Assembly: GCF_003991565.1 (NCBI RefSeq)
Contig: NZ_CP032819.1
Location: forward strand, 2,852,001 to 2,916,000
Length of the DNA: 64,000 bases
Direction: 5' to 3'
Source of the DNA: Butyricimonas faecalis
GTDB taxonomy: Bacteria; Bacteroidota; Bacteroidia; Bacteroidales; Marinifilaceae
The notes beneath the pieces were generated by a model. It made no database searches, was not told where the DNA came from, and saw only the letters and a list, made by a program, of their open reading frames with translations. A program made the translations under genes and the position numbers. Numbering within the stretch: the stretch's first letter is position 1; every line of letters starts with the position of its first letter. Positions 1 to 31,638 of this stretch are shown in pieces.

Positions 1-1496
1 TTCACATCCACCACATCAAAGCCTTGATTAATCAATGCCGAACGGTACAGCTTTTCCGACACCATATAGGAATAATCCCGATTCCGGTCCCCCGTAATCG
101 TGCGGGCATAATGATCTGAAAGGAATCCCACGCTCGGCAACTTCATACCTATCCGTTTCAACGCAGCGGAAATTTCCCTTTCAAAAGGAACTCGCTGTGC
201 ATCATTAAACACCCGCAAAAAAGTCTTTTCTCCATTTTCACGTTCCAACAACACCACGAAGCGATACCCCTCGTCTCTCAAATCCACGTCAGGATCGACC
301 TTCGATAGAGGAACATATTTTCGAGCATTAACCCCTTGGAATTTTGCCATTTCTTTTGCAGCCTCGGTCAACGTCTTTCCCGCAAAACGGTGCGCAAAAA
401 ATCCGTCCGTCGTGTCCGTGTAATAATAAAACACGTAATCCATCTTTGTCTCCGGTTTGAACCGTATATAAGAATTATAACGTGCTATATCAGCCATCAC
501 TTTGGCAGGAGTAATATTGTAAACACTACCGAACAAATTCACGTAAGTCGTCATTTTCAATCCCCCGTCCAACTTGGATACGATCTCCTGGCTAGCCTCG
601 GTCAACGTGTTTGTCTTGGTATGCGTCGAATCGTGATACAATCGTAACATCGGCCGAGAAGTCACGTATCCCAGCAACATCGCCACGATAAACACACCTA
701 GGAAGCGTCCGACTTTACTCAACACAGAACGACGCTCCCGAATAAACTGCAATTTCAAAATCGCGAACCCGAGGAACATGGCCGTCATAATAACAAAGTA
801 GAGAAAATCCTCACTGCAAATCATCCCGTTAATAAACGTACCGGCCCGTCGGTCCAGTGCCAGCCAATACGTAATATCCCGGACAAAAGTATATTCCTGC
901 CACAACCCGGACACGAAACGTAAGAAAGTCAACAAAGCCAGCATATAAATAGCCGCCACGATCGGGTAAGTCGTCAGCGTGGACATGAACAGACCGATTG
1001 CCGCGTAAGTTCCGAAAAGAAGGTACAGCCCCAACAGTCCGGTCAACACCGCTGCCCAGTCAAAGGATTCAATCCAACATCCGGCAAGAATAACGTACAC
1101 CAGCAACACGCTAAACATCAACAACCCATACATCATCATCCCCAGAAACTTTCCCAACACGATATGACGACTGGTAATCGGGGCTACAAACAACAATTTG
1201 ATCGATCCCCGGCTGAACTCCTGACTGATTAACCCCATCGTCAACAAAGGCATAATCATGTACAACAAATTACTGATCTTAGGCCACAACCCCCGTCCCG
1301 TTGCATCGAAAAATAACGCCCGGGACAAGTCAGACAAGCCCCCGCCCCGGAATTCCTGACTTCTCGCGTATGCCCAAAGCACATCCGTAAAATTCATCGC
1401 TGTCATAAAGACAAAAAGGATCAAGATCAACCATGCGATCGGCGAGTAAAAAAGATTTGATAACTCCAAACGAGCTATTCTGTATATTGCTCTCAT
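1..1496 (-). CDS. GldF/GldG-type ABC permease fusion, partial (runs off left edge)
   Basis: This gene is cut by the window edge; about 498 codons are visible from an ATG at 1496. The start reads MRAIYRIARLELSNLFYSP, followed by ABC-2-type membrane segments over roughly the first 240 residues. After that comes a periplasmic part like GldG/ABC_transp_aux (for example SKLDGGLKMTTYVNL). It is a clear paralogue of the complete 767-residue protein at 50968-53271, which shows the same order of parts. In the gliding-motility family GldF is the permease and GldG the auxiliary subunit; fused versions are common in non-gliding Bacteroidota and their substrate is unknown. The gene lies 26 bp downstream of its ATPase at 1523-2446, so the two should form one transporter. 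Both sit at the distal end of the first sigma/FecR/SusCD cluster. Confidence 0.85.
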   Translation of the reverse strand, partial: MRAIYRIARLELSNLFYSPIAWLILILFVFMTAMNFTDVLWAYARSQEFRGGGLSDLSRALFFDATGRGLWPKISNLLYMIMPLLTMGLISQEFSRGSIKLLFVAPITSRHIVLGKFLGMMMYGLLMFSVLLVYVILAGCWIESFDWAAVLTGLLGLYLLFGTYAAIGLFMSTLTTYPIVAAIYMLALLTFLRFVSGLWQEYTFVRDITYWLALDRRAGTFINGMICSEDFLYFVIMTAMFLGFAILKLQFIRERRSVLSKVGRFLGVFIVAMLLGYVTSRPMLRLYHDSTHTKTNTLTEASQEIVSKLDGGLKMTTYVNLFGSVYNITPAKVMADIARYNSYIRFKPETKMDYVFYYYTDTTDGFFAHRFAGKTLTEAAKEMAKFQGVNARKYVPLSKVDPDVDLRDEGYRFVVLLERENGEKTFLRVFNDAQRVPFEREISAALKRIGMKLPSVGFLSDHYARTITGDRNRDYSYMVSEKLYRSALINQGFDVVDV

Positions 1497-1522
1497 AACA
1501 TTTACTTCTTAGAATTAATTGA

Positions 1523-2446
1523 TTATTTACCGGACAATTTAGCAAATACGGCTTCCATGGAACTCTTCTCCTTTCGCAATTCTATCATATCCCATCCCCG
1601 AGAAACAGCCTCCCGCATCACTTGCTTAATCGTTCCCCGCTCCCCGTCATACCACAAACGAACGCCATGATTATCCAATGCTTCCGCCCGTTTGATACCG
1701 GGCAACTTCATCAATTCATCCATTTCCGGAAGTTGATCAAATTCCAAATAGAGCGTGTTCGGTTCGATATAATTATCAAAATCTTCCGTACTACCGGAAA
1801 AAACTACTCTCCCGTGTTCAATCATCTTGATAGAAGAGCAAGTAGCCTGAACCTCCGACAAAATATGCGTCGAAAGCATCACGGTCCGATCCACTGCAAT
1901 ATCCTTGATTAACTGACGGACTTCCAGTATTTGGTTCGGGTCCAACCCGTTCGTCGGTTCATCAAGCACCACGAACTTCGGATCATGTAAGATGGCCTGA
2001 GCCAGCCCGACGCGTTGCTGATACCCTCCCGAAAGATTACGCAACAACCTATCTTTCATATGAGTAATACCACAACGTTCCTCGGCAGCAGCGATAGCTG
2101 ATTTAATCTTTTTCTTATCCATCCACTGTATTTCTGCACAAAAACGCAAATACTCATCGACCGTCAGATCCGGGTACAAAGGGGGTTTCTGGGGTAAGAA
2201 ACCGATCAACTTACGAGCCTTCACAGGTTCTTTCAACGTGTTTATCCCGCCAATATATACCTCCCCCGCGGTCTGTCTCATCACCCCGCAAATAATATTC
2301 ATCGTGGTAGACTTACCCGCCCCATTCGATCCCAACAAACCAACCACCCCGGCATCATCAATCTGGAAATTAATATCCTCTATCGCCCAGCGACTGGAAG
2401 TATACCGATGATACAAATGTTCAACTCTTACAATTGGATTTTCCAT
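1523..2446 (-). CDS. ABC transporter ATP-binding protein (GldA/CcmA-like)
   Basis: A 307-residue ABC ATPase. Walker A is GSNGAGKST at residues 39-47, the Q-loop lies in GFLPQKPP, the signature LSGGYQ is at 138-143, Walker B VVLDEP at 159-164 and the switch histidine is H194 in STHIL. The C-terminal ~80 residues form the accessory domain typical of GldA/CcmA-like ATPases of ABC-2 transporters. It should power the adjacent downstream permease from the cytoplasmic face. It is strongly similar to the ATPase at 53283-54209 (shared stretches such as GFLPQKPPLY and LDPNQI), so the window holds two copies of the same kind of module. It begins 95 bp downstream of the lipoprotein gene of the SusCD cluster on the same strand. 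Co-transcription with that cluster is plausible but not proven. Confidence 0.93.
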   Translation of the reverse strand: MENPIVRVEHLYHRYTSSRWAIEDINFQIDDAGVVGLLGSNGAGKSTTMNIICGVMRQTAGEVYIGGINTLKEPVKARKLIGFLPQKPPLYPDLTVDEYLRFCAEIQWMDKKKIKSAIAAAEERCGITHMKDRLLRNLSGGYQQRVGLAQAILHDPKFVVLDEPTNGLDPNQILEVRQLIKDIAVDRTVMLSTHILSEVQATCSSIKMIEHGRVVFSGSTEDFDNYIEPNTLYLEFDQLPEMDELMKLPGIKRAEALDNHGVRLWYDGERGTIKQVMREAVSRGWDMIELRKEKSSMEAVFAKLSGK

Positions 2447-3531: not shown

Positions 3532-3556
3532 AATACCCTAGTTTTAATTTCCATGA

Positions 3557-5056
3557 CTATTTATTCTGTTCCAATCGGGGATTCAAACGGATCACCTCTT
3601 CAGCGATCGGCAACACGTACCTGTTCTTCTGTAATGTCACTTCCGTCTTGTTACCGGAAGCCGTCTCAAAAAAAGTATGGTTAATTTCCGGCATACCGTA
3701 TCTTCTCAAATCACACCAGCGATGCATCCAGTCTCCGGCCAACTCCCTACGCCGTTCCTCCTGATAGAATTTAAACAAATCATCCGGGTCCGTGATATTC
3801 ACCTCCTCATACGTGTACTCCACATTATTGAAACGGTGACGACGCAATTCATTCAAATCGTTCAAAGCCTTCTGACAACAAGACGCATCACCTCCTGCCA
3901 TATATTTACGGATATATCCCTCGGCGCGATTCAAATACATTTCAGCCGTACGAATCCCTTGGTACACGCCATTATTACTTCCCCCGATAGACAAATAACT
4001 CCGGTAATACGTGATAGACGGGAACGCCATTTTAAAATTCCACGCAAAATACAAACAACCCCGTATATCCCGAATCTTTTTATCTTTGACCATTACCTGT
4101 GTACACGGGCCATACAAATCCAACAATTCATCGGAAACCATATAACAAGGATCCGAGGCCTGCATATCCGGCAACTCCCGGTAACCTTCCCGCATCCAAA
4201 TCACCTCATCCGGCGTTTCGATGGAATACACGGACAACGACTCCGGGGATTTAGGCGTGCTCCACTGCACGGTGTTCAAATCCAACAAATTCGGCTTCAC
4301 CTGCAACACGCTGTCCGCGTAAGCAATCGCCCGGTCCCAATCCTCCATGTACAGATACATCCTCGACAGAAGAGCCTTGGCAGCCAGATGACCTATCCGC
4401 AAAAAGTTACGGTTATAATCATACTCCGTTAGCAACCGATTACCTCTCAATAAATCCCGTTCAATCTGCCCGTACACCTCTGCCACTGAATTACGGGGAA
4501 AACGTTCATCCCGAACCTCCATGGTCAACTTCAAAGGCACCCCCGGATTCAGGTTCGGATCACCTTCATTGTAAGGCATTCCATACATATTCACCAACAT
4601 CAAGTAGTACATGGAACGCAACGTCAACGCCTCCCCCCGAAGATTCTCTCTCAAAGATGCCTCTCCAGTCATATCATCCAGACAATCCAGCACGATATTA
4701 CATCCCAATATCTTGTTGTAAGGTAATTCCCAAAAGGCAGCATCATATCCTCCACCGGCATTGTTAAACATATCCGCATCCCACAAGAAACGCCACTTCA
4801 TATTCTCAAGATAAGTCCGGTAACCTTCACTCTTCAACCCGTTACATTTTATATCATCCGTGAAAATATCCATGATATTATACTGCACCTCTTTTTGTCC
4901 GGCATCCAGATAAGCATCTCCCAGAAGCAACTGTTCTACATCGGTAAGTTCTGTCGGTCGAACTTCGGTTATACTATATTCGTCAAGGAAGCCGTCACAA
5001 CCGACAAGCATCCACAACATGAACGAACCAACAAATGTTAATACGATCGATTTCAT
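3557..5056 (-). CDS. SusD/RagB-family outer-membrane lipoprotein (locus 1)
   Basis: A 499-residue surface lipoprotein with a lipobox at Cys20 (WMLVGC), followed by the CDGFLDE-type start common in SusD proteins. The middle shows TPR-like helices (for example LRSMYYLMLVNMYGMPY and AAKALLSRMYLYM). The C-terminus carries typical SusD signatures: RTAEMYLNRAEGYIR, the ERRRELAGDWMHRWCDLRRYG region and a final YVLPIAEEVIRLNP. SusD proteins form the lid of the SusC barrel and bind the ligand. The gene starts 16 bp after susC on the same strand. The ligand cannot be deduced from the sequence. Confidence 0.95.
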   Translation of the reverse strand: MKSIVLTFVGSFMLWMLVGCDGFLDEYSITEVRPTELTDVEQLLLGDAYLDAGQKEVQYNIMDIFTDDIKCNGLKSEGYRTYLENMKWRFLWDADMFNNAGGGYDAAFWELPYNKILGCNIVLDCLDDMTGEASLRENLRGEALTLRSMYYLMLVNMYGMPYNEGDPNLNPGVPLKLTMEVRDERFPRNSVAEVYGQIERDLLRGNRLLTEYDYNRNFLRIGHLAAKALLSRMYLYMEDWDRAIAYADSVLQVKPNLLDLNTVQWSTPKSPESLSVYSIETPDEVIWMREGYRELPDMQASDPCYMVSDELLDLYGPCTQVMVKDKKIRDIRGCLYFAWNFKMAFPSITYYRSYLSIGGSNNGVYQGIRTAEMYLNRAEGYIRKYMAGGDASCCQKALNDLNELRRHRFNNVEYTYEEVNITDPDDLFKFYQEERRRELAGDWMHRWCDLRRYGMPEINHTFFETASGNKTEVTLQKNRYVLPIAEEVIRLNPRLEQNK

Positions 5057-5072: not shown

Positions 5073-8000
5073 TTAAAAACTCACGTTTAAACTAAAAGTA
5101 AAATTCCTTGTCAATGGCTGACTTCCCTTAGCCACTTCCGGATCCCGGCTATCAAAATCGCTACTCACGATCTGGAATGGATTGGATAACGTCATGGTAA
5201 AACCCACGTTCTGGGCAAACCGGCGAATCAACCTCTCCGGGAACACGTAAGAAAGGCTTATACTGTTGCAACGCAAATACCACGCATCCGCAACCCGGAC
5301 ATCCGAATTCGCCCACGCCTCGTAAGGATAAAGACTCACGCTGGAATCTTTAAACGGATACATGGGCAAACAATTCTCGCCCACCGGGATAGAAGGAATA
5401 TTCGTGTACTTCTCGTCACCTGATTTTCGCCAACGCTTTAACAGTTGAGTCGAGGCATTTTTGTACTCGCTCGGCATACCATACGTGTTATTCATCTCGC
5501 CATACGGGGAACTCAAAAAACACTGGTTACCGGTTGACCAATAAAAAGAAGTCGCCAGCGTCCAATTCTTGTATCGGAAATTCATATTCAGTCCCGCCGT
5601 TAAATCCGGATCCAACTTCCCGGCATGAACCATGTACTGTGTCACGTCCAACTCACCCGCATTCGTGTTCGCCCCGGACATATCGAATAAAGGCCCGCCA
5701 TTTTCCGGATTCAGTCCGGCAAAACGGAATGCCCAGAAACTGGAAACAGGATATCCTTTCTTGTTATATTTCCCGCCTACAACCTCTCTCCAATCTCCCG
5801 TCGGTTCAAACTCCGAACTCACCTCGTTATACACTTTTGAAGTATTGAATCCCAAACTCCACACGAAATCCCGCGTGCGAACAGGTACCAGACTGAATGA
5901 CAATTCCCAACCGGAATTCTTCATATTACCGCCATTCACGTACATAGAATGCTCCCCGTTCTCGTAAGGAATCTCCCGTTGGGTAACCAAATCCTCTGTC
6001 TTCTTGTAATAATACTCGAACGAACCGTTCACCTTACTATGCAAAACGCTAAAATTAATTCCCAAATTAATCGACTTTGTCTTTTCCCATTTCAAATCGG
6101 GATTCGGCAATTTCGTGTAAGTCATCTTGAACTCTCCTGTCTCCGTATCCAAAGGCAAGATTTTCGCAATCAGATTCGCACTCACGTTCTCCACCACGTT
6201 TCCTTGATAACCGTAAGTGGCCGACAAAGACAAGTAATTCAACAAATCCTGCCCCTGCAACCAATGTTCATCCGTCACGTTCCACCGGGCACCGATAGAC
6301 CACACCGGCAGATATTTCTCTTTCTCGTCCTGTCCGAAACGGTTGGAACCATCACCTCTCACGGAGAAATTCAAGGCATAGCGATTATCATACATATAAG
6401 AACCCGAAACATAGTAAGACAACGTGTTATTCAACGATTTCGACAAAGAGGGAACCGTGCGTGCATACCCGTTCAGCGTGTAATTGACATCCGTACTCGG
6501 TCTCGTTCCCAGAGGTACATCCACGAATGACAAACCCCGCTCCGGCATATACCCATAATCCGTTTGTGCGTAAGATTTACGCTTATTACTACTCAACTCT
6601 CCCCCGACCATCATATTCACAGCGTGACGGCCAAAATTCTTTATATATTCAAACTGTCCTCGCCAGCTATAATTGAATCCTTCATTCTCGCTCACGTTCA
6701 ACTCGCCTCCATAAGGTAAAGGTGAAGTTTTCAGATCCGTGTCAAACGCATCGTGTTCGCCATAATTATATCCACGGATTCCGGCAATATAATTAGTCCG
6801 TTCCGTAAACCATGACTCCCCGAACGTAGAAATAGAACCTCCTCCCAAGGTGGTAGAAAAGACTAAATCTTCCAGAATCGTCCAACGGACATCAACACTC
6901 AAATTCAGACTTCTGCTTCTATTTTCATTCCCGGAATATTTCAATTCATTCAAAATATTATAATCATACCCTTTGCCCCCGCTAGCATAATAAAACAAAC
7001 TCCCATCCTCATTGTAGCAAGCGATTGCCCGGTTAGCATTGATGGCATAATTGAATGGATCCACCCCATTGGCAAAAGCTTTTGTCTCGGTATGAGAACC
7101 GGATAAAGAGACATTCAACCGCAACTTGTTCCAAAACGTAGAACTCAAATTCAAACGCCCGGTATAAGAAGTCTGTGAATTTCCTTTCGCCGTATTCTGA
7201 TTATTTGAATAACCTAAAGAAGCATAATAAGTAGAGTTGTTATTACCTCCCGAAAAACTCAGCGAATGAGAATGAGAAAACGGGGTTTGGTAAAGCACGT
7301 CAAACCAGTTCGTGTTCACGGATTCCAATGCCTTAGCTCCTCGGTCAAACTCATCGTAAGAAATCTCTCCCCGCTGGTAAGCCAACGCCAACCCGATATA
7401 TCCGATTTTATCATTCGGCACCTGTGCACCTCTCTCGTAAGCCTCCCGGGAAAGATCAACCCGCTGTTTGGAATTCATAATCTCCAGTTTGTCATAATTC
7501 AACTTTTCTCCCACGGAATAATTACCGGAATAGTTCAACGACAAACGTCCCCGCTCCCCTTTCTTCGTTGTGATCACGATCACCCCATTAGCAGCCTTTA
7601 CCCCGTAAATAGCCGTGGACGAAGCATCTTTTAGTACTGTTATATCCTGAATGTCATTGGGATTCAACCAAGCAATGGCTCCCCCGACAAAATTCTTGAT
7701 CATATCTATGTTATCATCACCAATATTGGTCAATTCACTGGCACTGAAAGGCAATGGATCTTGTTGAATAATCCCGTCAACCACCCACACCGGATCAGCA
7801 TTCCCCACCAGCGTGGAAGTACCCCGAACACGCACTTTCTGACGAGTACCGGTCAACCCACTTTGGTTAATCACCATCACACCCGGCAACTTACCCTGCA
7901 ACATCTGTTCGAGCGTCTGCGATCCGGTCATCACTAACTCATCGGCATCCACTTTCGAATATGATCCGACCATCGCTTTCTTCTTCACGGCCTGGTAGCC

Positions 8001-8657
8001 CGTGACAACCACTTCATCCATCTTAATTAGTTCCTCTTTCAAAACAACTCGCATCGTGTCCCTCGCCGTACGGGCCGAAAAGTCTACGATTTGAGTGGCA
8101 AACCCCACAAAAGAAAACTCCAGCCTACCCTCGGAAACAGGCAATTGTAATGAAAACCATCCTTTCGCATCCGTAGCCGTCCCGAGAGAAGTTCCCGATA
8201 ATTTTACCGTCACTCCCGGCATCGCCCGCTTTTTCTCGTCCACAACCCATCCTTTCAACCGGACGGAAATTCTCTCCGGATCTTGATTAACCGTCAAATC
8301 CTTGATCACAATCACATCATCCAGCAACGTGTACGTAAGCCCGGTTCCGCCCAACAAGCGATTCAACACATCTTTCAGTTCCTCGTTCTTGGCATCAACA
8401 GAAAGGTGATCAATCGCTTTTATCTTATCAATGCTATAGAAAAAGCGAATACCTGTCTGCTCCCGTAACTCGAGAATAATCGTTTCCAAGGAAACATCTT
8501 TCATCTGCAAAGACACCTTGTTCTCTTGAGAGAACCCCGTTGCCCAAGTACTGACCTGCAACACAACGGTGAGTAAAAAAGTCAGTTTCATCATCAAAAA
8601 AACTTTTTTTAAGACATGGATCGGCACACCACGCCTACTAATCCAATTTTTTTTCAT
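5073..8657 (-). CDS. SusC/RagA-family TonB-dependent transporter with STN signalling domain (locus 1)
   Basis: A 1194-residue outer-membrane transporter. The order is signal sequence (hydrophobic stretch near 24-40), STN domain (about 46-122, starting VSLQMKDVSLETIILEL), a carboxypeptidase-regulatory-like domain (about 132-215, with GVTVKLSGTSLGTATDAKG), plug (from about 213, KMDEVVVTGYQ, with VLKDASSTAIYG and ANGVIVITTKKG), then a large beta-barrel ending FTFSLNVSF with a terminal aromatic residue. The STN domain marks it as a TonB-dependent transducer that reports ligand occupancy to the FecR encoded just upstream. The start ATG lies 70 bp from the fecR stop, and a hairpin sits in that gap. 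Its SusD partner follows directly. Confidence 0.96.
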   Translation of the reverse strand: MKKNWISRRGVPIHVLKKVFLMMKLTFLLTVVLQVSTWATGFSQENKVSLQMKDVSLETIILELREQTGIRFFYSIDKIKAIDHLSVDAKNEELKDVLNRLLGGTGLTYTLLDDVIVIKDLTVNQDPERISVRLKGWVVDEKKRAMPGVTVKLSGTSLGTATDAKGWFSLQLPVSEGRLEFSFVGFATQIVDFSARTARDTMRVVLKEELIKMDEVVVTGYQAVKKKAMVGSYSKVDADELVMTGSQTLEQMLQGKLPGVMVINQSGLTGTRQKVRVRGTSTLVGNADPVWVVDGIIQQDPLPFSASELTNIGDDNIDMIKNFVGGAIAWLNPNDIQDITVLKDASSTAIYGVKAANGVIVITTKKGERGRLSLNYSGNYSVGEKLNYDKLEIMNSKQRVDLSREAYERGAQVPNDKIGYIGLALAYQRGEISYDEFDRGAKALESVNTNWFDVLYQTPFSHSHSLSFSGGNNNSTYYASLGYSNNQNTAKGNSQTSYTGRLNLSSTFWNKLRLNVSLSGSHTETKAFANGVDPFNYAINANRAIACYNEDGSLFYYASGGKGYDYNILNELKYSGNENRSRSLNLSVDVRWTILEDLVFSTTLGGGSISTFGESWFTERTNYIAGIRGYNYGEHDAFDTDLKTSPLPYGGELNVSENEGFNYSWRGQFEYIKNFGRHAVNMMVGGELSSNKRKSYAQTDYGYMPERGLSFVDVPLGTRPSTDVNYTLNGYARTVPSLSKSLNNTLSYYVSGSYMYDNRYALNFSVRGDGSNRFGQDEKEKYLPVWSIGARWNVTDEHWLQGQDLLNYLSLSATYGYQGNVVENVSANLIAKILPLDTETGEFKMTYTKLPNPDLKWEKTKSINLGINFSVLHSKVNGSFEYYYKKTEDLVTQREIPYENGEHSMYVNGGNMKNSGWELSFSLVPVRTRDFVWSLGFNTSKVYNEVSSEFEPTGDWREVVGGKYNKKGYPVSSFWAFRFAGLNPENGGPLFDMSGANTNAGELDVTQYMVHAGKLDPDLTAGLNMNFRYKNWTLATSFYWSTGNQCFLSSPYGEMNNTYGMPSEYKNASTQLLKRWRKSGDEKYTNIPSIPVGENCLPMYPFKDSSVSLYPYEAWANSDVRVADAWYLRCNSISLSYVFPERLIRRFAQNVGFTMTLSNPFQIVSSDFDSRDPEVAKGSQPLTRNFTFSLNVSF

Positions 8658-8695: not shown

Positions 8696-8728
8696 AGACA
8701 GGGTTGCCGGACCAGGGCATCCCTGTCT
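8696..8728 (-). other. Hairpin in the fecR-susC gap, locus 1
   Basis: Perfect 8-bp arms AGACAGGG (8696-8703) and CCCTGTCT (8721-8728), with a possible inner TGCC/GGCA pairing. The structure touches the fecR stop codon. On the coding (minus) strand the sequence that follows is AT-rich but not a U-run, so it looks more like an RNA-processing or attenuation element than a strong intrinsic terminator. Confidence 0.6.
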
Positions 8729-9906: not shown

Positions 9907-9977
9907 TACACTTCTTGTATTGGATTCACCTATTAAATCCAAAAAAACGAAAAAGTATAAAAAGAAAAATGATTTTT

Positions 9978-22534: not shown

Positions 22535-22558
22535 GATAAAGTTTATTTTAGTACAAAA

Positions 22559-22566
22559 CAAAGGTA
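22559..22566 (-). promoter_or_regulatory. Putative promoter -7 box for the split permease gene
   Basis: The minus strand reads TACCTTTG (TANNTTTG), 25 bp before the ATG at 22534. No good -33 TTTG is seen at the usual spacing, so support is modest. Confidence 0.4.
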
Positions 22567-22612
22567 GGAATAAAATTAGCAATATCGGCAGCAATAATAA
22601 AAATACAGAGAA

Positions 22613-22648: not shown

Positions 22649-23734
22649 TTAGCAATCAGTCAAGATTTCACGCAGTTGTTCCAAGGTTGGTTTTTTCGCT
22701 ACAATGTTTCCTTGAGGATCGATTAAATAAACGGTCGGAAGGGAGTCAAATTTATAAGACTTACGCAATTCACTAGCCTTGAAACCCTTTGGATCAATCA
22801 ATTGGGTCCAAGTTATTTTATCCGCTTCAACAGCCTTGATCCATAGAGCCCGATCGTCATCCAAAGAAACAGAAATTATTTCCAGGCCTGCCGCTTTTAA
22901 TTCCGGATAGTACTTAAATAATTCCCGGTTATTTTGCCGGCAACTCACACACCAAGAAGCCCAAAAATCCACTAAAACATATTTACCGCGGAAAGAGGAT
23001 AAGCGAACGAGTTTTCCCTTCATATCGGGCAATTCAAAATCCGGAGCCATGCCTGTCAGCTGTTTTGCCTTCAATTTAGCATAAGCTGTCGTTAAACGAT
23101 TCTTCATCGGGGTTTCTGCCATTTGCCCGTTCAATATCTCCATCACTTTGGTAAAACCGGCATAATCAACTTCCCAATGATAAAGTTTCTCATCCGCGAG
23201 AAAGTCGCCGATCTGAGTCCCTGCAAATTGACGAATCCCGGAAAGTAGATACTCTTGATTTTCGTCAAATATTTTGCCCATTCGATCTGAAAACCGGACT
23301 TTTTCTTCCATATCGGTAATTGTTTCATACCCCCTACATTCCATATTATATGCCGTTTCCCGTTGATCTTGTTCCTTACGAAATTTTGTAAATCGATTTT
23401 GCAAAGATTCTTCCAGGGAAGAAACCAAATAATAATTTTCTCCGCTCTTTTCCAACGTGTAATTCTGACTTTCAGCATACCATGGAATAGAGATATAATC
23501 TTTATACAAGTCGAGTACCAACATCGTGCCCTCGGGCAAACTTCCCGTCCAGGAAAAACTTCCATCGTCCTTCATCGGAATGGTAAACAGGACACTGTCC
23601 CGATGACTATTCGGCATCTTTACCTCTATAAATTTACTTTTAATCCCTTGTCCGAATTTCCCGTTTAAACGGGCTTGCGGCCCGGATTGACAACCGCAGA
23701 CCGCAATAACCAAGAATAAAAACAAATACTTCAT
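22649..23734 (-). CDS. TlpA-like thiol-disulfide oxidoreductase lipoprotein
   Basis: A 361-residue lipoprotein (lipobox VCGC, Cys15). The N-terminal ~100 residues resemble a DUF4369 beta domain (SVLFTIPMKDDGSFSWTGSLPEGT). A helical linker follows, then a thioredoxin-like AhpC/TSA domain from about 228 (APDFELPDMKGKLVRLSSFRGKYVLVDFWASWC). The redox motif is CVSC at 262-265, a departure from the usual CxPC because Ser replaces Pro, which may raise or lower its redox potential. The cis-proline loop SLPTVYLID is intact. Such proteins reduce or isomerise disulfides in the periplasm. It is 6 bp downstream of a second TlpA gene and part of locus 2. Confidence 0.9.
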   Translation of the reverse strand: MKYLFLFLVIAVCGCQSGPQARLNGKFGQGIKSKFIEVKMPNSHRDSVLFTIPMKDDGSFSWTGSLPEGTMLVLDLYKDYISIPWYAESQNYTLEKSGENYYLVSSLEESLQNRFTKFRKEQDQRETAYNMECRGYETITDMEEKVRFSDRMGKIFDENQEYLLSGIRQFAGTQIGDFLADEKLYHWEVDYAGFTKVMEILNGQMAETPMKNRLTTAYAKLKAKQLTGMAPDFELPDMKGKLVRLSSFRGKYVLVDFWASWCVSCRQNNRELFKYYPELKAAGLEIISVSLDDDRALWIKAVEADKITWTQLIDPKGFKASELRKSYKFDSLPTVYLIDPQGNIVAKKPTLEQLREILTDC

Positions 23735-23740: not shown

Positions 23741-24874
23741 TTATTTTATATATTTCGTGATGGCTTCCCGAATTCCATCTCCCCACAATTCTTTCTCCAA
23801 GATAATGCCTTCCGGAGAGATCAGAATAATAAAAGGTATCCCGTTGTAATTATACAATTTCCCAGTTATTCCTTCGGGATCATGCAATTGCAAATAAGGT
23901 AAGTTCTCTTCCTCCAAGGCCTTTTCCCAGTCCTTTGTTTTTTTGTCGACAGAAACCCCGATTACCTGAAGTCCTTTGTTCTTAAATTCTTCATTCGCTT
24001 TTTTCACGAGAGGCAATGCCTTACGACAAGGTCCGCACCAGGAAGCCCAGAAATCCATAAGCACGTATTTTCCCCGGAAAGAAGATAGTTTTACCATTTT
24101 CCCAGACGTATCCTTCAATTCAAAGTCGGGAGCAACGGCACCAACAGCACAATTCTTTATTAAGTCTATCCGTTGTTGCATTTTCTCTAGCCCGTAGCAA
24201 TGCCGGATAGAAGCATCAAATTGATTCAACAAGGCTTCCTGTTGTGCCACGTCATGATATGCCGCATACGAGCTGATAATCACGGCCAATGCCTTGTTTT
24301 TAGGATCAGTAGGAATGGAAGCAAAAAGTTGTTGCATTTGTAGATCCTGTAAAGAATCCACTTTGGCACTGCATTTTTTCAATATAGCTAGATTTTCATC
24401 CGTCATGGACACCACGTTATATTCATGAAAAGCCTTATTATAGATAGGGATAGCCTCATTCAATTCCTTTGTAACCGGCAAATTTGCAAACACGGCCTCA
24501 TAAGCCAGCGACAAGGGTGATCCTTTAATGCTCTCTTTGTTGATTCCTTTTTCATTTATAAATCCCGTCACTTCCACCTGATCCGAATCTACAAAAAGCA
24601 TCATGGTCGGTATTTTCATAGAAGGTCCAAGCGGGGCAATCGAAGGGAAATGTATAAAAAAAGGTTGACCGTAATCCGTGTCCACGGTAAGTTCCAAGGT
24701 AAATTTATCATTCACGCCCTTCGTTCGCGCCATTTCTTTATTATCGAAAGTATAAAGAACTACTTCGTTGTTTCCCAAGCCTTTTATATTCCCGGTAACT
24801 TTTACCGGTTTTTCGACAGCACAAGCCGCCAACACTATAAAAAACAGTGCAAAAAATACATACAATGATTTCAT
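23741..24874 (-). CDS. TlpA-like thiol-disulfide oxidoreductase lipoprotein with DUF4369 domain
   Basis: A 377-residue lipoprotein (lipobox VLAAC, Cys18). DUF4369-like N-terminus (VTGNIKGLGNNEVVLYTFDN), helical middle, then a thioredoxin-fold domain from about 245 (APDFELKDTSGKMVKLSSFRGKYVLMDFWASWC) with the classical CGPC at 280-283 and cis-proline loop GIPFIILIS. It differs from its downstream neighbour in the redox motif (CGPC against CVSC), so the pair may work at different potentials. It follows susD of locus 2 by 27 bp. Confidence 0.92.
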   Translation of the reverse strand: MKSLYVFFALFFIVLAACAVEKPVKVTGNIKGLGNNEVVLYTFDNKEMARTKGVNDKFTLELTVDTDYGQPFFIHFPSIAPLGPSMKIPTMMLFVDSDQVEVTGFINEKGINKESIKGSPLSLAYEAVFANLPVTKELNEAIPIYNKAFHEYNVVSMTDENLAILKKCSAKVDSLQDLQMQQLFASIPTDPKNKALAVIISSYAAYHDVAQQEALLNQFDASIRHCYGLEKMQQRIDLIKNCAVGAVAPDFELKDTSGKMVKLSSFRGKYVLMDFWASWCGPCRKALPLVKKANEEFKNKGLQVIGVSVDKKTKDWEKALEEENLPYLQLHDPEGITGKLYNYNGIPFIILISPEGIILEKELWGDGIREAITKYIK

Positions 24875-24901: not shown

Positions 24902-26272
24902 CTATCTTGGATTCTGTTCTATACCATTATTCAATATCCGTACTTTTGCCGCGATCGGGAACATGTACCTGTTCGAATTGGGTGCAAGAGTGTACGTCGT
25001 TTCTTTGAATTGACGAGTAAGTGTTCGGGTATATATCCCTTCTTTAGCCAGACGTTTCATGTCAAAGAATCGTACTCCACTATATACCAATTCCCGTTGC
25101 CGTTCCTCCAACACCACGCCCAATAATTTATCGCCATTTACTTCCGGTAGATCCGTGTATTTATCTGTAGCGATACGCTTTTTACGTAATTCATTCAACA
25201 CGTTCAAGGCTTTCGGGTCTTTCTTTCGGGCCAAGCATTCAGCCTTAATCAACATCATTTCCGGAACTCCTATATTATAATCGAGTTCTTGCAAGAACAA
25301 AGGATAAGGTTCATCTATTGGCTTCCCGGATCTATCGAGCACGGTAAAATTAAATTTATAACGCAAATCGGCATCCGTATCAAAAAGATCGAGTAGTTCG
25401 GGTGACATACAACAAGAAGAAAGGATTGATTGGAAGCTAGTAGAACGATACATAATCATTTCAGGCGATTCCCTTGGAATAGGACGATTATTGATTCCCC
25501 CGGAAGGTTTTCCTTCATTCTTAAAACTGAATGTGTTGTAATCAACTAACTTATTGTTCAATTTCAACGCTTCTTCCGCATTCTCCAATGCTGCATCATA
25601 ATTTCCGAAAAACAAGTTCACCCGAGCCGCCAAACCAAATGCTGCCATACGAGGAAGATGATAAACCGAAATACTCTCTTCAGGCAAATCCATAGCCACG
25701 TTCTTCAAATCTTCCAATATTTGTGTAACCACTTTATCGGAAGTAGCCCGCTTCACTTTGGCTTCCAAATCAGGTTCCAATACCAATGGAACACTCAAGT
25801 CCGCTGCAGCCGTTTCCGGAGCATAAGCCGGAGCATAACAAGAATGTAAATACCAATAGTAAAAAGCACGATTCACCCGGGCCTCCGCCATTACTCGTGC
25901 TCGATCAGCATCTGATCCCTCCTTTGCTTTGGGAGTTTCCTGTAATACCAGATTGCACGTGTAAATAATCTCGTAGGCACTGTTCCATGTCGCATCGTCC
26001 TCTTCCGGAAGATAAAATTCTTCCTGCCACGTGTAGGCTTTTCCCTGTTCTGACATCATTTTCCCTGTTAAGCGTTCCTCCGTCATATAAAGATTATCAC
26101 CACACATTTCTGCAAGAGGGTTGATTGATGACGGATTACGGGAATCCCCGATCATCTCGTCAAAATCCTGCACTTTTTCAGGGAGCAACTTTCCCTTGGG
26201 AGTCACATCCAAAAAAGAGTCACATCCACATAACAAAATAATCGCTAAAGCTATATTACATATTCTTTTCAT
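24902..26272 (-). CDS. SusD/RagB-family outer-membrane lipoprotein (locus 2)
   Basis: A 456-residue lipoprotein with lipobox LLCGC (Cys17) followed by DSFLDVTPKGK, typical of SusD. Visible signatures are AYEIIYTCNLVLQ, ARVNRAFYYWYLHSCYAP, GLAARVNLFFGNYDAAL, VPEMMLIKAECLARK, NELRKKRI, LEERQRELVYSGVRFFDMKRL and the C-terminal RYMFPIAAKVRILNNGIEQNPR. It caps the SusC encoded 18 bp upstream. The protein is short for the family, as is common for peptide-type or non-glycan SusDs, so the ligand stays open. Confidence 0.94.
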   Translation of the reverse strand: MKRICNIALAIILLCGCDSFLDVTPKGKLLPEKVQDFDEMIGDSRNPSSINPLAEMCGDNLYMTEERLTGKMMSEQGKAYTWQEEFYLPEEDDATWNSAYEIIYTCNLVLQETPKAKEGSDADRARVMAEARVNRAFYYWYLHSCYAPAYAPETAAADLSVPLVLEPDLEAKVKRATSDKVVTQILEDLKNVAMDLPEESISVYHLPRMAAFGLAARVNLFFGNYDAALENAEEALKLNNKLVDYNTFSFKNEGKPSGGINNRPIPRESPEMIMYRSTSFQSILSSCCMSPELLDLFDTDADLRYKFNFTVLDRSGKPIDEPYPLFLQELDYNIGVPEMMLIKAECLARKKDPKALNVLNELRKKRIATDKYTDLPEVNGDKLLGVVLEERQRELVYSGVRFFDMKRLAKEGIYTRTLTRQFKETTYTLAPNSNRYMFPIAAKVRILNNGIEQNPR

Positions 26273-26290: not shown

Positions 26291-29200
26291 TTAGAACTCT
26301 ACTCTTAAACCTAACGTGAAAGAAGGAGCCTCGCTCAATCCCAACGTTCCATGAATCGGATCAACTACTTCCGGATCAAACCCTTCTTTATTTTTCGTCC
26401 ACATCCACACGGTATTTGCTTGTGCTGTTAGGCTTACACGAGAAAATGGCGTTTTCTTGATTAATTGAGAAGGTAATTCGTAATTCAATGTGATCTCCCG
26501 CAAACGAATGAAATCTCCCTTGCGAACACTATTGGACGAGTACGAGGCTAGATGTTGTCTCATTCCATCATAGGATTCCCATGTCAATGTTGCCGGAATA
26601 TCCGTCTTATTCTCATCTCCCGGCTTTTGCCAACGTTTGGCAACAAATGCACTCAAATCGGCAGTCCCTTCCAGAGGGTTCATCGTAGGGTAGGCAATAC
26701 GGAAGACATGCCCAAAGTTATAGACAAAAGCAAATGACAAGAGGATGTTCTTATATTTAAAGTCTGTTGAAAGACTTCCACTATATTTCGGTCGATAGGT
26801 TCCATTGCATTCAATAGATTCTGCTACAGGAGTACGAGTTTTATTTCCCTCCGCATCATAGGTCTGAGGATTACCATTTTCATCCAATCCAGCCCAACGA
26901 TAACTCCACAATGCTTCCCGCGGATAACCTTTAACAAATTCGGTAACAGCATGGGTGCGGTTATAAGCCGGATTTCCATCCGAAATATTATTATTCGTAA
27001 TCTTATTTTTATTATACCCAAAAACAAAGTTCACAAACCACGAGAAATCTTTCAGACGCAGGGCTTCGGCATTTAACTGCATTTCAACTCCCCGGTTACG
27101 CATATCGGCAGCATTAATATACCCTCCGCTAAACCCAAGTGTCGGATCGATTTGAACATTTCCCAACAAGTCGTAACTACGTTTGTCGTAATATTCCAAC
27201 ACGATTGACAAACGATTAAACAATTCTGTCTCGACTCCGATATTTAACGTTTTTGTCCGTTCCCATCTCAATTTGGGGTTCGGAGCATTTGACACACGTG
27301 ATAGATAAGCACCGATCGCACTATTGAAACTTCTCCTAACGGTCAACAAAGGAGTAGATGACCCGCTCCGGTCGAAATTACCCGTTAATCCGTAAGAAAT
27401 TCGAGGGGCTAAACGGTTGATAACATTAGAATGGAAAAAATCTTCTTCGTGTACATTCCAACTTAAACCCACTGACCACAAGGGGTTACGACGATATTTC
27501 TTCGCTGCCCCGAATAAATTGGACTCATCAATACGGAACGTTCCGCTCAACGTGTAACGACTATCATACGTATACACGGCAGAGCCATAGTAAGATACTT
27601 CTCGGTTATCCCGATATGAAAATTTGTCATAATAACTGGCATCATAAGTATGCTTATACATGTCCCAAGCGTCAATCCCCGTTTTAGCTAACTCTTGCTC
27701 GTCAAATAATTGGTAAGACAACAATTCATCATCATAACCCAATTTACGATAAGAATTAGATTTGGAGGTATGCTTGCGTAATTCGAAACCGGCGACAACA
27801 TTCACGTAATGTTCTCCTTCTTTACCAAAATTCCGATTTAATATACCCCCAATTTTTAAAGCATGTGCAGTCAAGTCCTCATTCTTCATGTCCAAAATAT
27901 CGCCCATAGGTAAATGATTCACGAGTTTACCATTTTCCACATTTGTCATATAATTCAATTGCTCCCGAACAGCATATGTTTCTTCATCCTGCAAATTTTT
28001 GGTCTCACTATGCGTCCGTTCATACTGGTAATCGGCAGAAAGTTTCAACCCATCCAATATGGTTATGTCAAGCCCCATTTTCGCCCGTAATCCGAACTTA
28101 TTGGTCTTATTATTAGCCAAATCAATTTCATCCAACACGTTGAATCCATAATCTTTATAGCCTTCTTCTACTAACTCCTGATTTTTTTGGATATTAAAGT
28201 TCGCGTAATCTTTTACCCGGTTTCCCTCTTCGTCAACTAACATTTGGTAAGGCAAAATCGTATTAATAACACTTTTTACATCGTATCCATGATTTTCTTT
28301 CCCATAAACTGCATTCAAGTCCGCCCGTACGGAGATTCTAGGTGTAACCACATAGGTGTTTTTAGATAAAATATTTATAGAATTCTTACTACTTCCATCC
28401 TTGTATACAGAATTTTCACCCGTGTAACTTCCGGACAAGAAGTATGAAAACTTCTCACTTCCTCCGCTCAAGGAAAGGTTATGATTATGGCGTATTGCTG
28501 TACGTAACAATTTATCCTCGATCTGTTTCTTATTGGACATTCCACCCAGAATTTCCAACTTTTCTTCTAACTGATCGCGAGTAATGTTGTTCTTCTCATA
28601 TTCGAAAATCCAACCCAAAGAAGGGGAATAACCATTAGCGCTATTCTCATAGATTCCTCCGAATATCAATTCTTTATCAAACATTTCAAGATCATAATCC
28701 ACCAACGTTTTCGAGTCTGCTCGATTCAAATCATCAAAATCAGGTTTACACATTAGATTGACATTACCGGAATAAGATAACTTACTGTGACCGACAGTTC
28801 CTTTTTTCATCTCTATTACAATCACGCCATTGGCGGCACGAGTACCCCATATTGCTGCCGCCGCCGCATCTTTCAACACGGTAATTCGTTCTACAAGGTC
28901 CATGTTTTCCGGTAGTTCATCCACTTCAAAACCATCCACGATATATAACGGTTTAGTTCCCACTTTTTCAGAAATAGTACTTCCACCTCGTATACGAACG
29001 TCATTATTATAAATCGTCAAACCAGGGACTTTACCTTCCAATAAACGATTCAAGCCTGCACTTCCTCGCAATTCTATCGCTTGGGGTGAAATCGTAGAGA
29101 AAGATCCTGTAGTATTAACTTTCTTTAAAGTCTGATAACCGGTACATACCACATCCCCCAGTTCTTGCGCATCCATTTGCATAACCACGTTGTAGGACAA

Positions 29201-29755
29201 ACGATTGGGAACAAGTTTCACCTCTTGCATTTTCATCCCGACCATCGTAAATTGTAAAACAACACCTTCTAGTTTAACAATTTCCAGTTGGAAATTACCA
29301 TCCGCATCGGTAGCCACTCCCACCGTGGTTCCTTTGATGATTACGGACACTCCCGGTAGGGGTAAACCCGCCTCATCGACAACATTTCCTTTGATCGTGT
29401 GTTTCTTTTCCTGAGTCACACGGGAAACCACGATATGGTCTGCCAAGATTTCATAAGCAAAAGGTTTTCCTCGAAAAATCACATCCAAGATTTCACTTAC
29501 GGTTTTACCCATGAAATTCTGCTTATTTGCTTGGAAACCCTGCACATCCTCGTGATTAAACACGAACTTTAAATTTGTTTTCTGCTGGATCAAATCGAAT
29601 AATTGAACAAAGGTCACTTGTTCAAATTTCAGATTGATTCGTTCCTGCTGGGACCAGACTTTCGCACTTAGTCCCGAACACGTTAACAGAACGACCAGAC
29701 ACGCCAACTTCATTTTAATCATGATCCGGTTCAATTTTTGAATTGTTTTTTTCAT
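26291..29755 (-). CDS. SusC/RagA-family TonB-dependent transporter with STN domain (locus 2)
   Basis: A transporter of 1154 residues from the ATG at 29755 (MKKTIQKLNRIMIKMKLACL); an upstream ATG at 29779 gives 8 more residues. Signal sequence, STN domain (about 40-114, INLKFEQVTFVQLFDLIQQK), carboxypeptidase-regulatory-like domain (VDEAGLPLPGVSVIIKGTTVG), plug with VLKDAAAAAIWGTRAANGVIVIE, and a barrel ending SFTLGLRVEF. The STN domain makes it the likely ligand sensor for the upstream FecR/sigma pair. It is followed after 18 bp by its SusD partner. Confidence 0.95.
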   Translation of the reverse strand: MKKTIQKLNRIMIKMKLACLVVLLTCSGLSAKVWSQQERINLKFEQVTFVQLFDLIQQKTNLKFVFNHEDVQGFQANKQNFMGKTVSEILDVIFRGKPFAYEILADHIVVSRVTQEKKHTIKGNVVDEAGLPLPGVSVIIKGTTVGVATDADGNFQLEIVKLEGVVLQFTMVGMKMQEVKLVPNRLSYNVVMQMDAQELGDVVCTGYQTLKKVNTTGSFSTISPQAIELRGSAGLNRLLEGKVPGLTIYNNDVRIRGGSTISEKVGTKPLYIVDGFEVDELPENMDLVERITVLKDAAAAAIWGTRAANGVIVIEMKKGTVGHSKLSYSGNVNLMCKPDFDDLNRADSKTLVDYDLEMFDKELIFGGIYENSANGYSPSLGWIFEYEKNNITRDQLEEKLEILGGMSNKKQIEDKLLRTAIRHNHNLSLSGGSEKFSYFLSGSYTGENSVYKDGSSKNSINILSKNTYVVTPRISVRADLNAVYGKENHGYDVKSVINTILPYQMLVDEEGNRVKDYANFNIQKNQELVEEGYKDYGFNVLDEIDLANNKTNKFGLRAKMGLDITILDGLKLSADYQYERTHSETKNLQDEETYAVREQLNYMTNVENGKLVNHLPMGDILDMKNEDLTAHALKIGGILNRNFGKEGEHYVNVVAGFELRKHTSKSNSYRKLGYDDELLSYQLFDEQELAKTGIDAWDMYKHTYDASYYDKFSYRDNREVSYYGSAVYTYDSRYTLSGTFRIDESNLFGAAKKYRRNPLWSVGLSWNVHEEDFFHSNVINRLAPRISYGLTGNFDRSGSSTPLLTVRRSFNSAIGAYLSRVSNAPNPKLRWERTKTLNIGVETELFNRLSIVLEYYDKRSYDLLGNVQIDPTLGFSGGYINAADMRNRGVEMQLNAEALRLKDFSWFVNFVFGYNKNKITNNNISDGNPAYNRTHAVTEFVKGYPREALWSYRWAGLDENGNPQTYDAEGNKTRTPVAESIECNGTYRPKYSGSLSTDFKYKNILLSFAFVYNFGHVFRIAYPTMNPLEGTADLSAFVAKRWQKPGDENKTDIPATLTWESYDGMRQHLASYSSNSVRKGDFIRLREITLNYELPSQLIKKTPFSRVSLTAQANTVWMWTKNKEGFDPEVVDPIHGTLGLSEAPSFTLGLRVEF

Positions 29756-29780
29756 AACTTTGTTGCTGTGATTAAACATG

Positions 29781-29798
29781 ATTCCCCGCCAAGGGAAT
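29781..29798 (-). other. Small hairpin in the fecR-susC gap, locus 2
   Basis: Arms ATTCCC (29781-29786) and GGGAAT (29793-29798) around CGCCAA, between the fecR stop (29842) and the susC start. It is weaker than the hairpins of loci 1 and 3 but in the same place. Confidence 0.45.
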
Positions 29799-29841
29799 TT
29801 AAATTACCTCCGGGATATGCGCCAACATATTCCGGTCTTTT

Positions 29842-30984
29842 TTATTGTATTGATTTTTTCTGCACGATTAATGTTTTCCCATCCAGTTTCATCTTGATTT
29901 TTTTCGTTTTCTCTAACACCTCGATGACTTCTGCAATAGAAGCGTTACGACGGAACCACGCTGTAAAGTGATAATTCTTCACTTCCGTATCCTGATAGTA
30001 CACGTCGAAATCATACCAACGTGCCAATTCGTTGATAATGTCCTCCAAACGAACTTCTTTAAAACTAAATGTACCATCTCGCCAACCGATTACATCCACT
30101 ACATTTACTTCCTTCATGACCAATTGCCCATCAACGAGTAAGGCCTGTTGTCCGGGATGCATTTTCAGGACTTCCTTTCCTCGCTCCAGTTGTACGCTTC
30201 CCTCAACCAAAGTCGTAGCCACCCTTTCTCCGGAATAATTACGCACATTAAATTGTGTTCCTGTTACCCGGATATCATAATCGCTTATTTTCACGACAAA
30301 AGGCTTTTCCACGTTCTTTGCTACTTCAAAATAAGCTTCTCCCCGTAGTTCAACCTGACGTTTATCCCCAGAAAAAGCAACCGGGAAACGGATGTAACTG
30401 TCCGAATTCAACCAAACCGTTGTACCATCAGCCAAGACAAGCCTATATTCTCCTCCTCGCGGGATCGTGATCGTATTATAAGCTTCATTAACAGGCATCT
30501 TATTTTCAACCTGTTTATACACTAACTCGTTATCTGTTAAGGTTGAAATCTCCGCACCTTGTTCACTTATAGCGGAAACACCTCCAACAAGTTCTACTTG
30601 TTTACCGGTAGATAATGTCAACACGGCAAGCTTTCCTCCCGGTTTAACAGTCGGCTCGACATAAACCGTTTGCACCTTTTCCTGTTCTCGGGTAAGCAAA
30701 AGAAGACCCACGCCTAAAGGCAATAACAAGATGGCCGCGTACTTCAACACTTGACGTACTCGAGAGATTTTCCGAACTGGACGAACTTTATTCCAAGCTT
30801 TTTTACGATCCACTTTATCTTTCACGGAATAGGCCATCACTCCCGAACGAAATTTCGACAACTCTCGAAAATACCTTTGATGAGAAGGAGTTTTAAACCA
30901 CTCTTCAAAACATACTTTTTCATCTTCCGACAATATCTCGGAAGCAAGTTGTTTCATGATTATTTCTTCTAATTTCTTTTCCAT
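29842..30984 (-). CDS. FecR-family anti-sigma factor (locus 2)
   Basis: A 380-residue single-pass anti-sigma factor: cytoplasmic N-terminus (about 1-80), membrane segment ILLLPLGVGLLLLT, periplasmic FecR domain (YNTITIPRGGEYRLVLADGTTVWLN, ELRGEAYFEVA, VTGTQFNVRNYSG) and C-terminal DUF4974 (LEDIINELARWYDFDVYY). It links the STN domain of the downstream SusC to the upstream sigma factor. It starts 78 bp after the sigma stop and is transcribed in the same direction. Confidence 0.94.
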   Translation of the reverse strand: MEKKLEEIIMKQLASEILSEDEKVCFEEWFKTPSHQRYFRELSKFRSGVMAYSVKDKVDRKKAWNKVRPVRKISRVRQVLKYAAILLLPLGVGLLLLTREQEKVQTVYVEPTVKPGGKLAVLTLSTGKQVELVGGVSAISEQGAEISTLTDNELVYKQVENKMPVNEAYNTITIPRGGEYRLVLADGTTVWLNSDSYIRFPVAFSGDKRQVELRGEAYFEVAKNVEKPFVVKISDYDIRVTGTQFNVRNYSGERVATTLVEGSVQLERGKEVLKMHPGQQALLVDGQLVMKEVNVVDVIGWRDGTFSFKEVRLEDIINELARWYDFDVYYQDTEVKNYHFTAWFRRNASIAEVIEVLEKTKKIKMKLDGKTLIVQKKSIQ

Positions 30985-31062
30985 TTTTCCCGTATTATAT
31001 TCTAAAGACAGGAAAAGAAATAAATCGAGTGGTTCAAAAAATAAAAAATAAAGAATTATTTT

Positions 31063-31638
31063 TCACACATACTTTTCACGATAGTAGAAAGCACAAAAAA
31101 GTATGGGAGATGAAATATCTTTACGCATTTCCTCCCGCAGAAAAGCGTATGCCTTCTTTATATGGTCTTTCACCGTATTCAACGAGATTTTTAAAGAACT
31201 TGCAATCTCTGCATAAGATTTCGATTCCAAAATACTCATTTCTAATACTTTTCTGCGTTTTTCAGGTAATTTGTTCAATAGATTCCCAACTTCTTCAATG
31301 AAAGTCTCCGGTTCTTCCTCGTCATCCGAGATTTCTTGTAGCAAGCAATACTGACGGTACTTATCCATAACTTGCTGATGTTCGAGAAGGTTTAAACACT
31401 TATTCCGGATACTAAAAAGTAAATACCCTTGAATATTTTGAATTTCCCTCAACTCTTCACGTTTTTCCCATAAGCGCATGAAAACCTCCTGAACAATATC
31501 TTCTGCCGCATTCAAATCATTCGTGTAATACACGGCACGCTGCACCATCCCGACATACGAGTGATCAAACAGGGATTTAAATACTTTCTCATCCCCACGT
31601 ATTAAACGCTCTATATCAACTGAAATAAATGGTGTCAT
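31063..31638 (-). CDS. ECF RNA polymerase sigma factor (locus 2)
   Basis: A 191-residue FecI-like ECF sigma factor with region 2 (LNAAEDIVQEVFMRLWEKRE, YLLFSIRNKCLNLL) and region 4 with helix-turn-helix (SKSYAEIASSLKISLNTVKDHIKKAYAFL). It is the head gene of locus 2. The minus strand carries TATATTTG at 31697-31690, 52 bp upstream of the ATG. The 222-bp gap to the divergent hydrolase gene contains both promoters and no other feature I can name. Confidence 0.95.
   Translation of the reverse strand: MTPFISVDIERLIRGDEKVFKSLFDHSYVGMVQRAVYYTNDLNAAEDIVQEVFMRLWEKREELREIQNIQGYLLFSIRNKCLNLLEHQQVMDKYRQYCLLQEISDDEEEPETFIEEVGNLLNKLPEKRRKVLEMSILESKSYAEIASSLKISLNTVKDHIKKAYAFLREEMRKDISSPILFCAFYYREKYV

Follow-up and report, generated by a model that had tools for sequence, protein, structure and literature searches.

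A SusCD transducer locus of Butyricimonas faecalis paired with a GldFG-type ABC module

Why should a SusCD transducer locus with no glycan-degrading enzyme end in the genes of an ABC machine, and does the pairing extend beyond one place in one genome? These questions are raised by a stretch of 64,000 nucleotides of Butyricimonas faecalis (contig NZ_CP032819.1; here called the window). An original prediction, made from the sequence alone, had described two loci in it as one design, in which a SusCD system captures peptides or similar ligands and hands them to an ABC machine.

Gene content of locus 1

Locus 1 spans window positions 3 to 10547 on the minus strand, with genes 16 to 95 bases apart, and its make-up proved to be as first described. 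It comprises an ECF sigma factor (9978..10547; Pfam Sigma70_r2 and r4_2), a FecR anti-sigma factor (8728..9942; FecR and FecR_C), a SusC with an STN domain (5073..8657; STN, CarbopepD_reg_2, Plug, and barrel), a SusD (3557..5056; SusD-like_3 and SusD_RagB), the lipoprotein P0003 (2542..3531), a GldA-like ABC ATPase (1523..2446; ABC_tran, with TIGR03522 under its cut-off), and an ABC-2 permease joined in one gene to a GldG-type periplasmic part (3..1496; ABC2_membrane_2, with TIGR03518 under its cut-off, and a structural model). With adjacent genes whose domains score above the Pfam cut-offs, locus 1 is an ECF/FecR-controlled SusCD transducer. The fusion gene crosses the left end of the window, which holds its 5' 498 codons; the complete protein has 804 amino acids (L011), and when seen in the genome its GldG-type part matches ABC_transp_aux.

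The ATPase has intact motifs, and its second- and third-best models were drrA and a lantibiotic-protection ATPase, both under their cut-offs. PADLOC returned generic ATPase matches only for the ABC gene and no match for the other six proteins. Measured against NCBIfam equivalog cut-offs, locus 1 scored 74.8 to 78 for GldF (cut-off 288.5), 280.8 for GldA (402.6), and 19 for GldG (389.85). A separate, split gldA-gldF-gldG set is present elsewhere in the genome (L018), also under the equivalog cut-offs (346.1, 196.5, and 201.8). Given that set and scores so far under the cut-offs, we ruled out the fusion as the gliding-motility transporter.

P0003 is predicted by modeling to have the zinc-metallopeptidase fold of the TIGR04549/Peptidase_Mx1/M93 type, which agrees with the earlier claim of a peptidase-like lipoprotein that lacks HExxH. 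Its sequence matched neither the TIGR04549 nor the Peptidase_Mx1 profile, and PDB sequence searches with P0003 alone, with the six-row profile A2, or with the lipoprotein of L015 gave nothing useful. HExxH was found in none of 23 rows of P0003 and its relatives from the named loci (the best 79 of at least 549 relatives; one row is a 142-amino-acid fragment) and in none of eight P0003-like rows from the same genome, among which the window copy is counted twice and one row is weak. Five of the six relatives' stretches fetched for P0003 held such a lipoprotein in a SusCD locus with no GldFG in the stretch.

Recurrence of the SusCD and GldFG pairing

The original prediction had proposed conserved co-occurrence of SusCD with GldFG or with permease/M1 fusions as its own check, and for GldFG-type ABC genes the co-occurrence is conserved. 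It was found at 9 of 10 places in the same genome, where a binomial takes paralogous places as independent, and at 66 of 78 named loci. The named loci are the best 79 of at least 549 confirmed relatives, a non-random, Butyricimonas-rich set from which L110 was left out because no GldFG ORF was called there. The other 12 of the 78 had no same-strand SusD, and 8 of these 12 had at least 6 kb of 5' sequence. ORFs were called and families labeled with custom scripts, using profiles built from the window and its genome. Linkage of this extent, with tight spacing, would be hard to obtain other than by selection for the pairing.

A Butyricimonas-kind genome carries the cluster of SusCD, surface protein, and ABC machine about 10 times, related bacteria do likewise, and the surface protein is often protease-shaped but without the usual zinc-binding motif. 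Genomes of the genus have 12 to 28 GldFG matches of the SusCD-linked kind. In a phylum sample, the fusion was present at an E value of ≤1e-100 in 4 of 118 genomes, that of the window included, so it is rare outside the expanded lineages.

The module lies either 5' or 3' of SusCD, linkers have been exchanged repeatedly among the cassettes, and one paralogous cassette (L009) has a fucosidase gene on its 3' side. SusC and GldFG distances within the genome were uncorrelated (Mantel r = −0.08, P = 0.72; 7 of 9 units usable), which indicates that the ABC part is not matched to SusC subtype. Over 51 units (5 of 56 dropped for partial genes or identity) the correlation was 0.36, and within linker types it was 0.72 and 0.46, all of these values being confounded by species relatedness. 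The recurring neighbors of the cassettes are proteases and not metal genes.

A third locus (34690-54281), absent from the original prediction, has another ABC/GldFG module, placed 5' of the SusCD genes, all on the minus strand. Pfam scans identified a second GldA-like ATPase (53283..54281) and GldFG-type fusion (50968..53271), an ECF sigma factor (47448..47999), FecR (46106..47269), SusC with STN (42541..45924), SusD (41063..42532), and, at 38714..41054, a DUF4843 protein (40314-41054) and a PKD_2 protein (38714-40261). Between the module and the sigma factor are two short MutS-family ATPases with domains III and V (49485..50819 and 48151..49488). PDB sequence searches with the second fusion alone gave nothing useful, nor did those with the PKD_2 and DUF4843 proteins, whether used individually or as profiles.

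As first stated, no glycan-degrading enzyme occurs among the Pfam matches for the genes of loci 1 to 3, which therefore lack the glycan-active enzyme of a polysaccharide utilization locus. A scan with a Bacteroides-type promoter pattern gave 1 match across the 64 kb, where 1.46 were expected; sigma-70-type sites numbered 22 (18.5 in shuffles) and terminator-like sites 14 (10.0 in shuffles). The promoter counts are at chance level; in locus 1, two of the sigma-70-like matches, both weak, fall across gene junctions.

Locus 2 and the permease/M1 family

Locus 2 (19290-31638, minus strand) begins in the same manner, with an ECF sigma factor (31063..31638), FecR (29842..30984), SusC (26291..29779), and SusD (24902..26272) confirmed by Pfam scan; the STN domain fell short, at 22.5 bits against a Pfam cut-off of 28.4. 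The two supposed accessory lipoproteins are TlpA-type thioredoxin-fold proteins with CxxC (23741..24874 and 22649..23734). The supposed permease/M1 fusion is in fact two ORFs in different frames that overlap by 4 bases: a permease ORF (21569..22594) with no Pfam match at an E value of ≤0.01, and an M1-like pseudo-peptidase with a C-terminal Golvesin_C domain (19290..21572). Fused relatives match ABC2_membrane_2, and those in G002, G004, and G005 are single open frames of 1,079 to 1,129 amino acids; judged from its sequence, the gene is frame-disrupted here.

The lack of HExxH held in all copies examined: 0 of 17 rows from the same genome (from 13 genes, counting split halves and a spurious row) and 0 of 12 from the named loci (the best 79 of at least 549 relatives). 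The M1 assignment itself comes from weak profile matches, namely, PF01433 in 2 of 6 fused relatives (E values of 0.007 and 0.022, both under the cut-off) and aminopeptidase N with profile A6 (E values of 8e-4 to 0.01). None of the genes in locus 2 was found to encode an ATP-binding subunit. A SusD lies 5' within 10 kb of only 4 of the 13 permease/M1 genes in the genome, and 1 of 7 stretches from locus 2 relatives contains one (L163). The co-occurrence proposed for permease/M1 fusions is therefore weak, and we ruled out that loci 1 and 2 share a design: they differ also in permease family, ATPase, and intactness of frame.

A candidate mechanism, its rivals, and known systems

The repeated cluster seems to be a transport or handling system that has apparently not been described; the pairing was not found in the literature searched (one library). 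We postulate, at a probability of roughly one-half, that locus 1 represents an envelope module which recurs among Bacteroidota and equips a TonB-dependent SusCD transducer with an ABC engine of its own, acting mechanically on imported cargo. The genes of such a module would presumably be cotranscribed. SusD and the degenerate metallopeptidase-fold lipoprotein would hold the ligand at the cell surface. This ligand is probably a peptide or protein, or perhaps a carrier of metal, to judge from the peptidase theme and a single lead on iron. SusC would import it, and the STN domain would signal through FecR to the ECF factor, switching on the operon. The GldA-like ATPase may then power the NosY-like permease, whose fused periplasmic arm, with a predicted IFT52-like domain, would act on imported cargo or periplasmic partners, whether to unload, pass on, or remove them. 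Homodimers may form where ABC/GldFG is present once and heterodimers where it is in tandem. Counting against this reading are the chance-level promoter scans with the two weak matches at locus 1 junctions, the uncorrelated SusC and GldFG distances, the named loci that lack a same-strand SusD, and the P0003-like lipoproteins in SusCD loci that have no GldFG in the stretch.

More tentatively, we speculate that there is a class of TonB-dependent SusCD systems with an inner-membrane ATP engine working mechanically across the periplasm on imported peptide or protein cargo. Inactivated peptidase folds would hold ligand at the surface or, for the permease/M1 family, within the periplasm, and a pair of MutS/KamC-like ATPases would assist in certain lineages.

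Acquisition of iron or another metal is an unlikely rival: in the manner of Ics, the module would capture a metal complex or a host or microbial protein that carries iron, with the ABC part helping in release or handling. Iron uptake systems are classically under ECF/FecR control, and locus 1 carries genes for both factors; its permease also resembles, in models, NosY, part of a copper-enzyme maturation machine, and P0003 is predicted to share the fold of the Ics-type metallohydrolase family. In Riemerella anatipestifer, excerpts of one report describe B739_0103-0101 (SusC, RagB, and zinc-metallohydrolase) as upregulated 8- to 14-fold (log2 3.06 to 3.81) by iron depletion and equate these genes with icsC, icsD, and icsE of the Capnocytophaga canimorsus iron capture system (PMC5429918). 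However, those loci carry the HExxH-named family and not the HExxH-less branch, proteases and not metal genes accompany the cassettes, and the loci are too many per genome for one metal.

Two further readings strike us as improbable. That the cassette merely lies beside SusCD loci, as a passenger that moves or duplicates, fits the uncorrelated distances, exchanged linkers, and variable position, but not the close linkage at 9 of 10 places in the genome and at 66 of the 78 named loci (best of at least 549). Detoxification or immunity, in which SusCD senses antimicrobial peptides that an ABC-2 exporter and proteases remove, as in lantibiotic protection, is marginally less probable again. The lower-ranked ATPase models, the recurring proteases, and a weak match of the locus 2 permease ORF to a lantibiotic permease model (E value of 0.0066) favor it; yet ABC ATPases match numerous models, SusCD imports and would bring the toxin in, and a search by name found no immunity gene. 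We give very little credence to the joint model of the original prediction, with loci 1 and 2 as the same kind of peptide-capture system. In L034 the permease/M1 gene follows SusC, SusD, and a P0003-like lipoprotein, so both permease families can fill the same slot, and in L078, L086, L116, L126, and L142 a permease/M1 gene comes after a GldFG cassette of the same strand; the scarcity of SusD and the missing ATPase described above count against it.

If locus 1 is indeed a SusCD module with its own engine, the recurrence of one ABC engine beside SusCD across several Bacteroidota families offers a candidate partner for the post-outer-membrane step of many non-glycan SusCD systems, places GldFG-type machines in a setting other than motility, and provides a shared genetic context for those members of a surface zinc-peptidase family that lack HExxH. 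That family (TIGR04549, PF15890 Peptidase_Mx1, MEROPS M93; 4l7a and 9urd), named “substrate import-associated zinc metallohydrolase lipoprotein,” shares its fold with P0003, which, like the relatives examined, differs in lacking HExxH. The locus 2 family has its permease and putative M1-like region in common with ABC transporter permease/M1 family aminopeptidase proteins, as its relative P0116 is named, whereas its 13 genes in this genome lack HExxH and have a C-terminal Golvesin_C domain.

Among characterized systems, GldA/GldF/GldG of gliding motility shares the GldA-like ATPase, GldF-like permease, and GldG-type part with locus 1, where, in contrast, permease and GldG part form one gene present in many copies beside SusCD. 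The permease of NosFY, from the NosDFYL machine, has the fold predicted for the locus 1 fusion, which in addition bears a periplasmic arm; Pfam matches for loci 1 to 3 included no NosD or NosZ domain. Ics and its R. anatipestifer counterpart have SusC, SusD, and then a TIGR04549-type lipoprotein, the order of locus 1, and the excerpted description mentions no GldFG-type ABC module (PMC5429918). RagAB, reported to be implicated in protein uptake (PMC11817032), and other non-glycan SusCD systems resemble locus 1 in having SusCD without carbohydrate-active enzymes; to the RagAB plan, locus 1 adds ECF/FecR control, a degenerate lipoprotein, and an ABC engine.

SusCD-GldFG pairing in the window and the genome

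Locus 1 (window 3-10547, minus strand) encodes, in order, an ECF sigma factor, FecR, an STN-SusC, SusD, the lipoprotein P0003, an ABC ATPase, and a fusion of an ABC-2 permease with a GldG-type periplasmic part (GldFG), with intergenic gaps of 16 to 95 bases. P0003 (329 aa; 2542-3531) has a zinc-metallopeptidase fold that lacks HExxH. The fusion gene runs past the window end; it is complete in genome stretch L011 (804 aa), where a CxxC-containing TlpA-like protein comes after it. A protein of 868 aa (10649-13255), the C-terminal part of which matches Schlafen AlbA_2 and for which PADLOC gave no match, ends about 100 bases upstream of the locus 1 ECF gene.

A PF09822 search of the 4.98-Mb genome returned 17 matches, 16 of them in fusions at 10 places and one in a split gldA-gldF-gldG set (L018). 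At nine of the 10 fusion places, a same-strand SusD is located 5' within 10 kb, and at eight within 4 kb; the chance for a random place, based on the 91 SusD matches in the genome, is 0.089 and 0.036, respectively (binomial, 3e-9 and 1e-10, assuming independence of paralogous places). The remaining place, at 50968-54281 in the window, itself lies 5' of the SusCD part of locus 3. We also detected 12, 15, 21, 25, and 28 GldFG-type matches (fragments among them) in five same-genus genomes and 16 in a genome from a different genus of the family; 8 of the 21 genomes examined, this one counted, had any such match. In L009, one GldFG cassette is followed, some 650 bases to its 3' side, by an alpha-L-fucosidase gene (1080-3179).

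In locus 3 (34690-54281), the SusCD part (ECF, FecR, SusC, SusD, DUF4843, PKD_2, and thioredoxin-fold genes) is preceded on its 5' side by genes for an ABC ATPase and another GldFG fusion and by a pair of short MutS-family genes. The neighboring MutS-family ATPases (48151-50819) have domains III and V only, and both also match the reactivase ATPase KamC, under its cutoff. The order ABC, GldFG, MutS, MutS, ECF, FecR, SusC, SusD is also seen in L092, in L136, and, placed behind another SusCD, in L105.

Conservation and linker exchange across relatives

A search of genome contigs gave the named loci, the best 79 of 549 relatives, 78 of which have a called GldFG gene. Within these 78, a same-strand SusD was present in the fetched stretch of 66 (on the 5' side in 52 and solely 3' in 14), SusD and GldFG shared one same-strand run with gaps below 400 bases in 62, and the GldFG run included MutS genes in 24. 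The conserved co-occurrence of SusCD with GldFG, which the original prediction had proposed as a check, was borne out both here and in the genome itself. No same-strand SusD was found in the fetched stretches of the other 12 (L075, L076, L087, L088, L095, L098, L100, L118, L119, L128, L135, and L143), four of which had less than 3 kb of 5' sequence. Six Bacteroides records (L099, L123, L125, L132, L133, and L139) have two ABC/GldFG copies followed by SusC, SusD, DUF4843, and PKD_2, with no ECF or FecR labeled in their stretches. We found no description of this pairing in the literature searched, a body from which most subscription journals were absent.

The interval between SusD and the ABC gene holds a P0003 relative, a DUF4843 and PKD_2 pair, or no gene. 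Among the same best 79 of 549 relatives, we counted 21 DUF4843/PKD_2 linkers, 19 P0003-like linkers, five direct junctions of 33 to 82 bases (L108, L117, L124, L140, and L141), and two others. In a 51-protein GldFG tree, P0003-like linkers required 6 label changes and DUF4843/PKD_2 linkers 10, both below every one of 500 shuffles, a clustering that near-copies favor. Linker type was thus swapped several times, with the SusCD pairing kept.

Peptidase-like genes also occur in or beside related cassettes. Long genes are paired within SusCD/GldFG cassettes in L078 (3744-9028; two met-zincins, of which one has HExxH and one does not) and in L009 (7384-12672; a met-zincin with HExxH next to an 822-aa protein that lacks the motif). 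M16 peptidases (L102 and L145) and an M64-type protein (L119) occur beside others.

Locus 2 and the permease/M1 family

In locus 2 (19290-31638), the ECF, FecR, SusC, and SusD genes are accompanied by genes for a pair of TlpA-type proteins, a permease, and an M1-like/Golvesin_C protein. Loci 1 and 2 had been thought to share one design, but locus 2 has no ATPase gene, and SusD lies 5' within 10 kb of just 4 of the genome's 13 permease/M1-like genes (binomial, 0.02); locus 2 is a separate case. Nor is the predicted fusion seen in the window, where the gene is split into two ORFs that differ in frame; G002, G004, and G005 have copies in a single frame. The predicted lack of HExxH held for all 13 genes. 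Their M1 assignment is tentative and comes from weak profile matches. One of seven relatives' stretches fetched for the locus 2 gene comes after a SusCD locus (L163 of G004; 85% identity), and it is of another subtype. In L034, SusC, SusD, and a P0003-like lipoprotein precede a permease/M1 gene, so the GldFG and permease/M1 families can occupy the same slot.

Other family members in the genome include a gene with an in-frame stop (L027, 12353-15546) and one split over two ORFs (L025, 11649-14920). In L031 (3507-10451), a permease/M1-like fusion has as neighbors a 729-aa protein similar to ABC proteins and a 102-aa ORF, the start of which resembles a double-glycine leader.

Possible function

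We place the probability of the module architecture and its linkage to SusCD at about 0.9. The ABC engine probably serves the SusCD system; a peptidic cargo on which the engine would work mechanically in the periplasm is a joint proposal that we rate as less likely than not. The main competing lead is that the module acts in iron acquisition and, because of it, our best explanation includes "perhaps a metal carrier," with its odds unaltered. This lead comes from R. anatipestifer, in which B739_0103-0101 (SusC, RagB, and a zinc-metallohydrolase) rose by log2 3.06 to 3.81 under iron depletion; the authors consider these genes the counterparts of icsC, icsD, and icsE in the iron capture system of C. 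canimorsus (PMC5429918).
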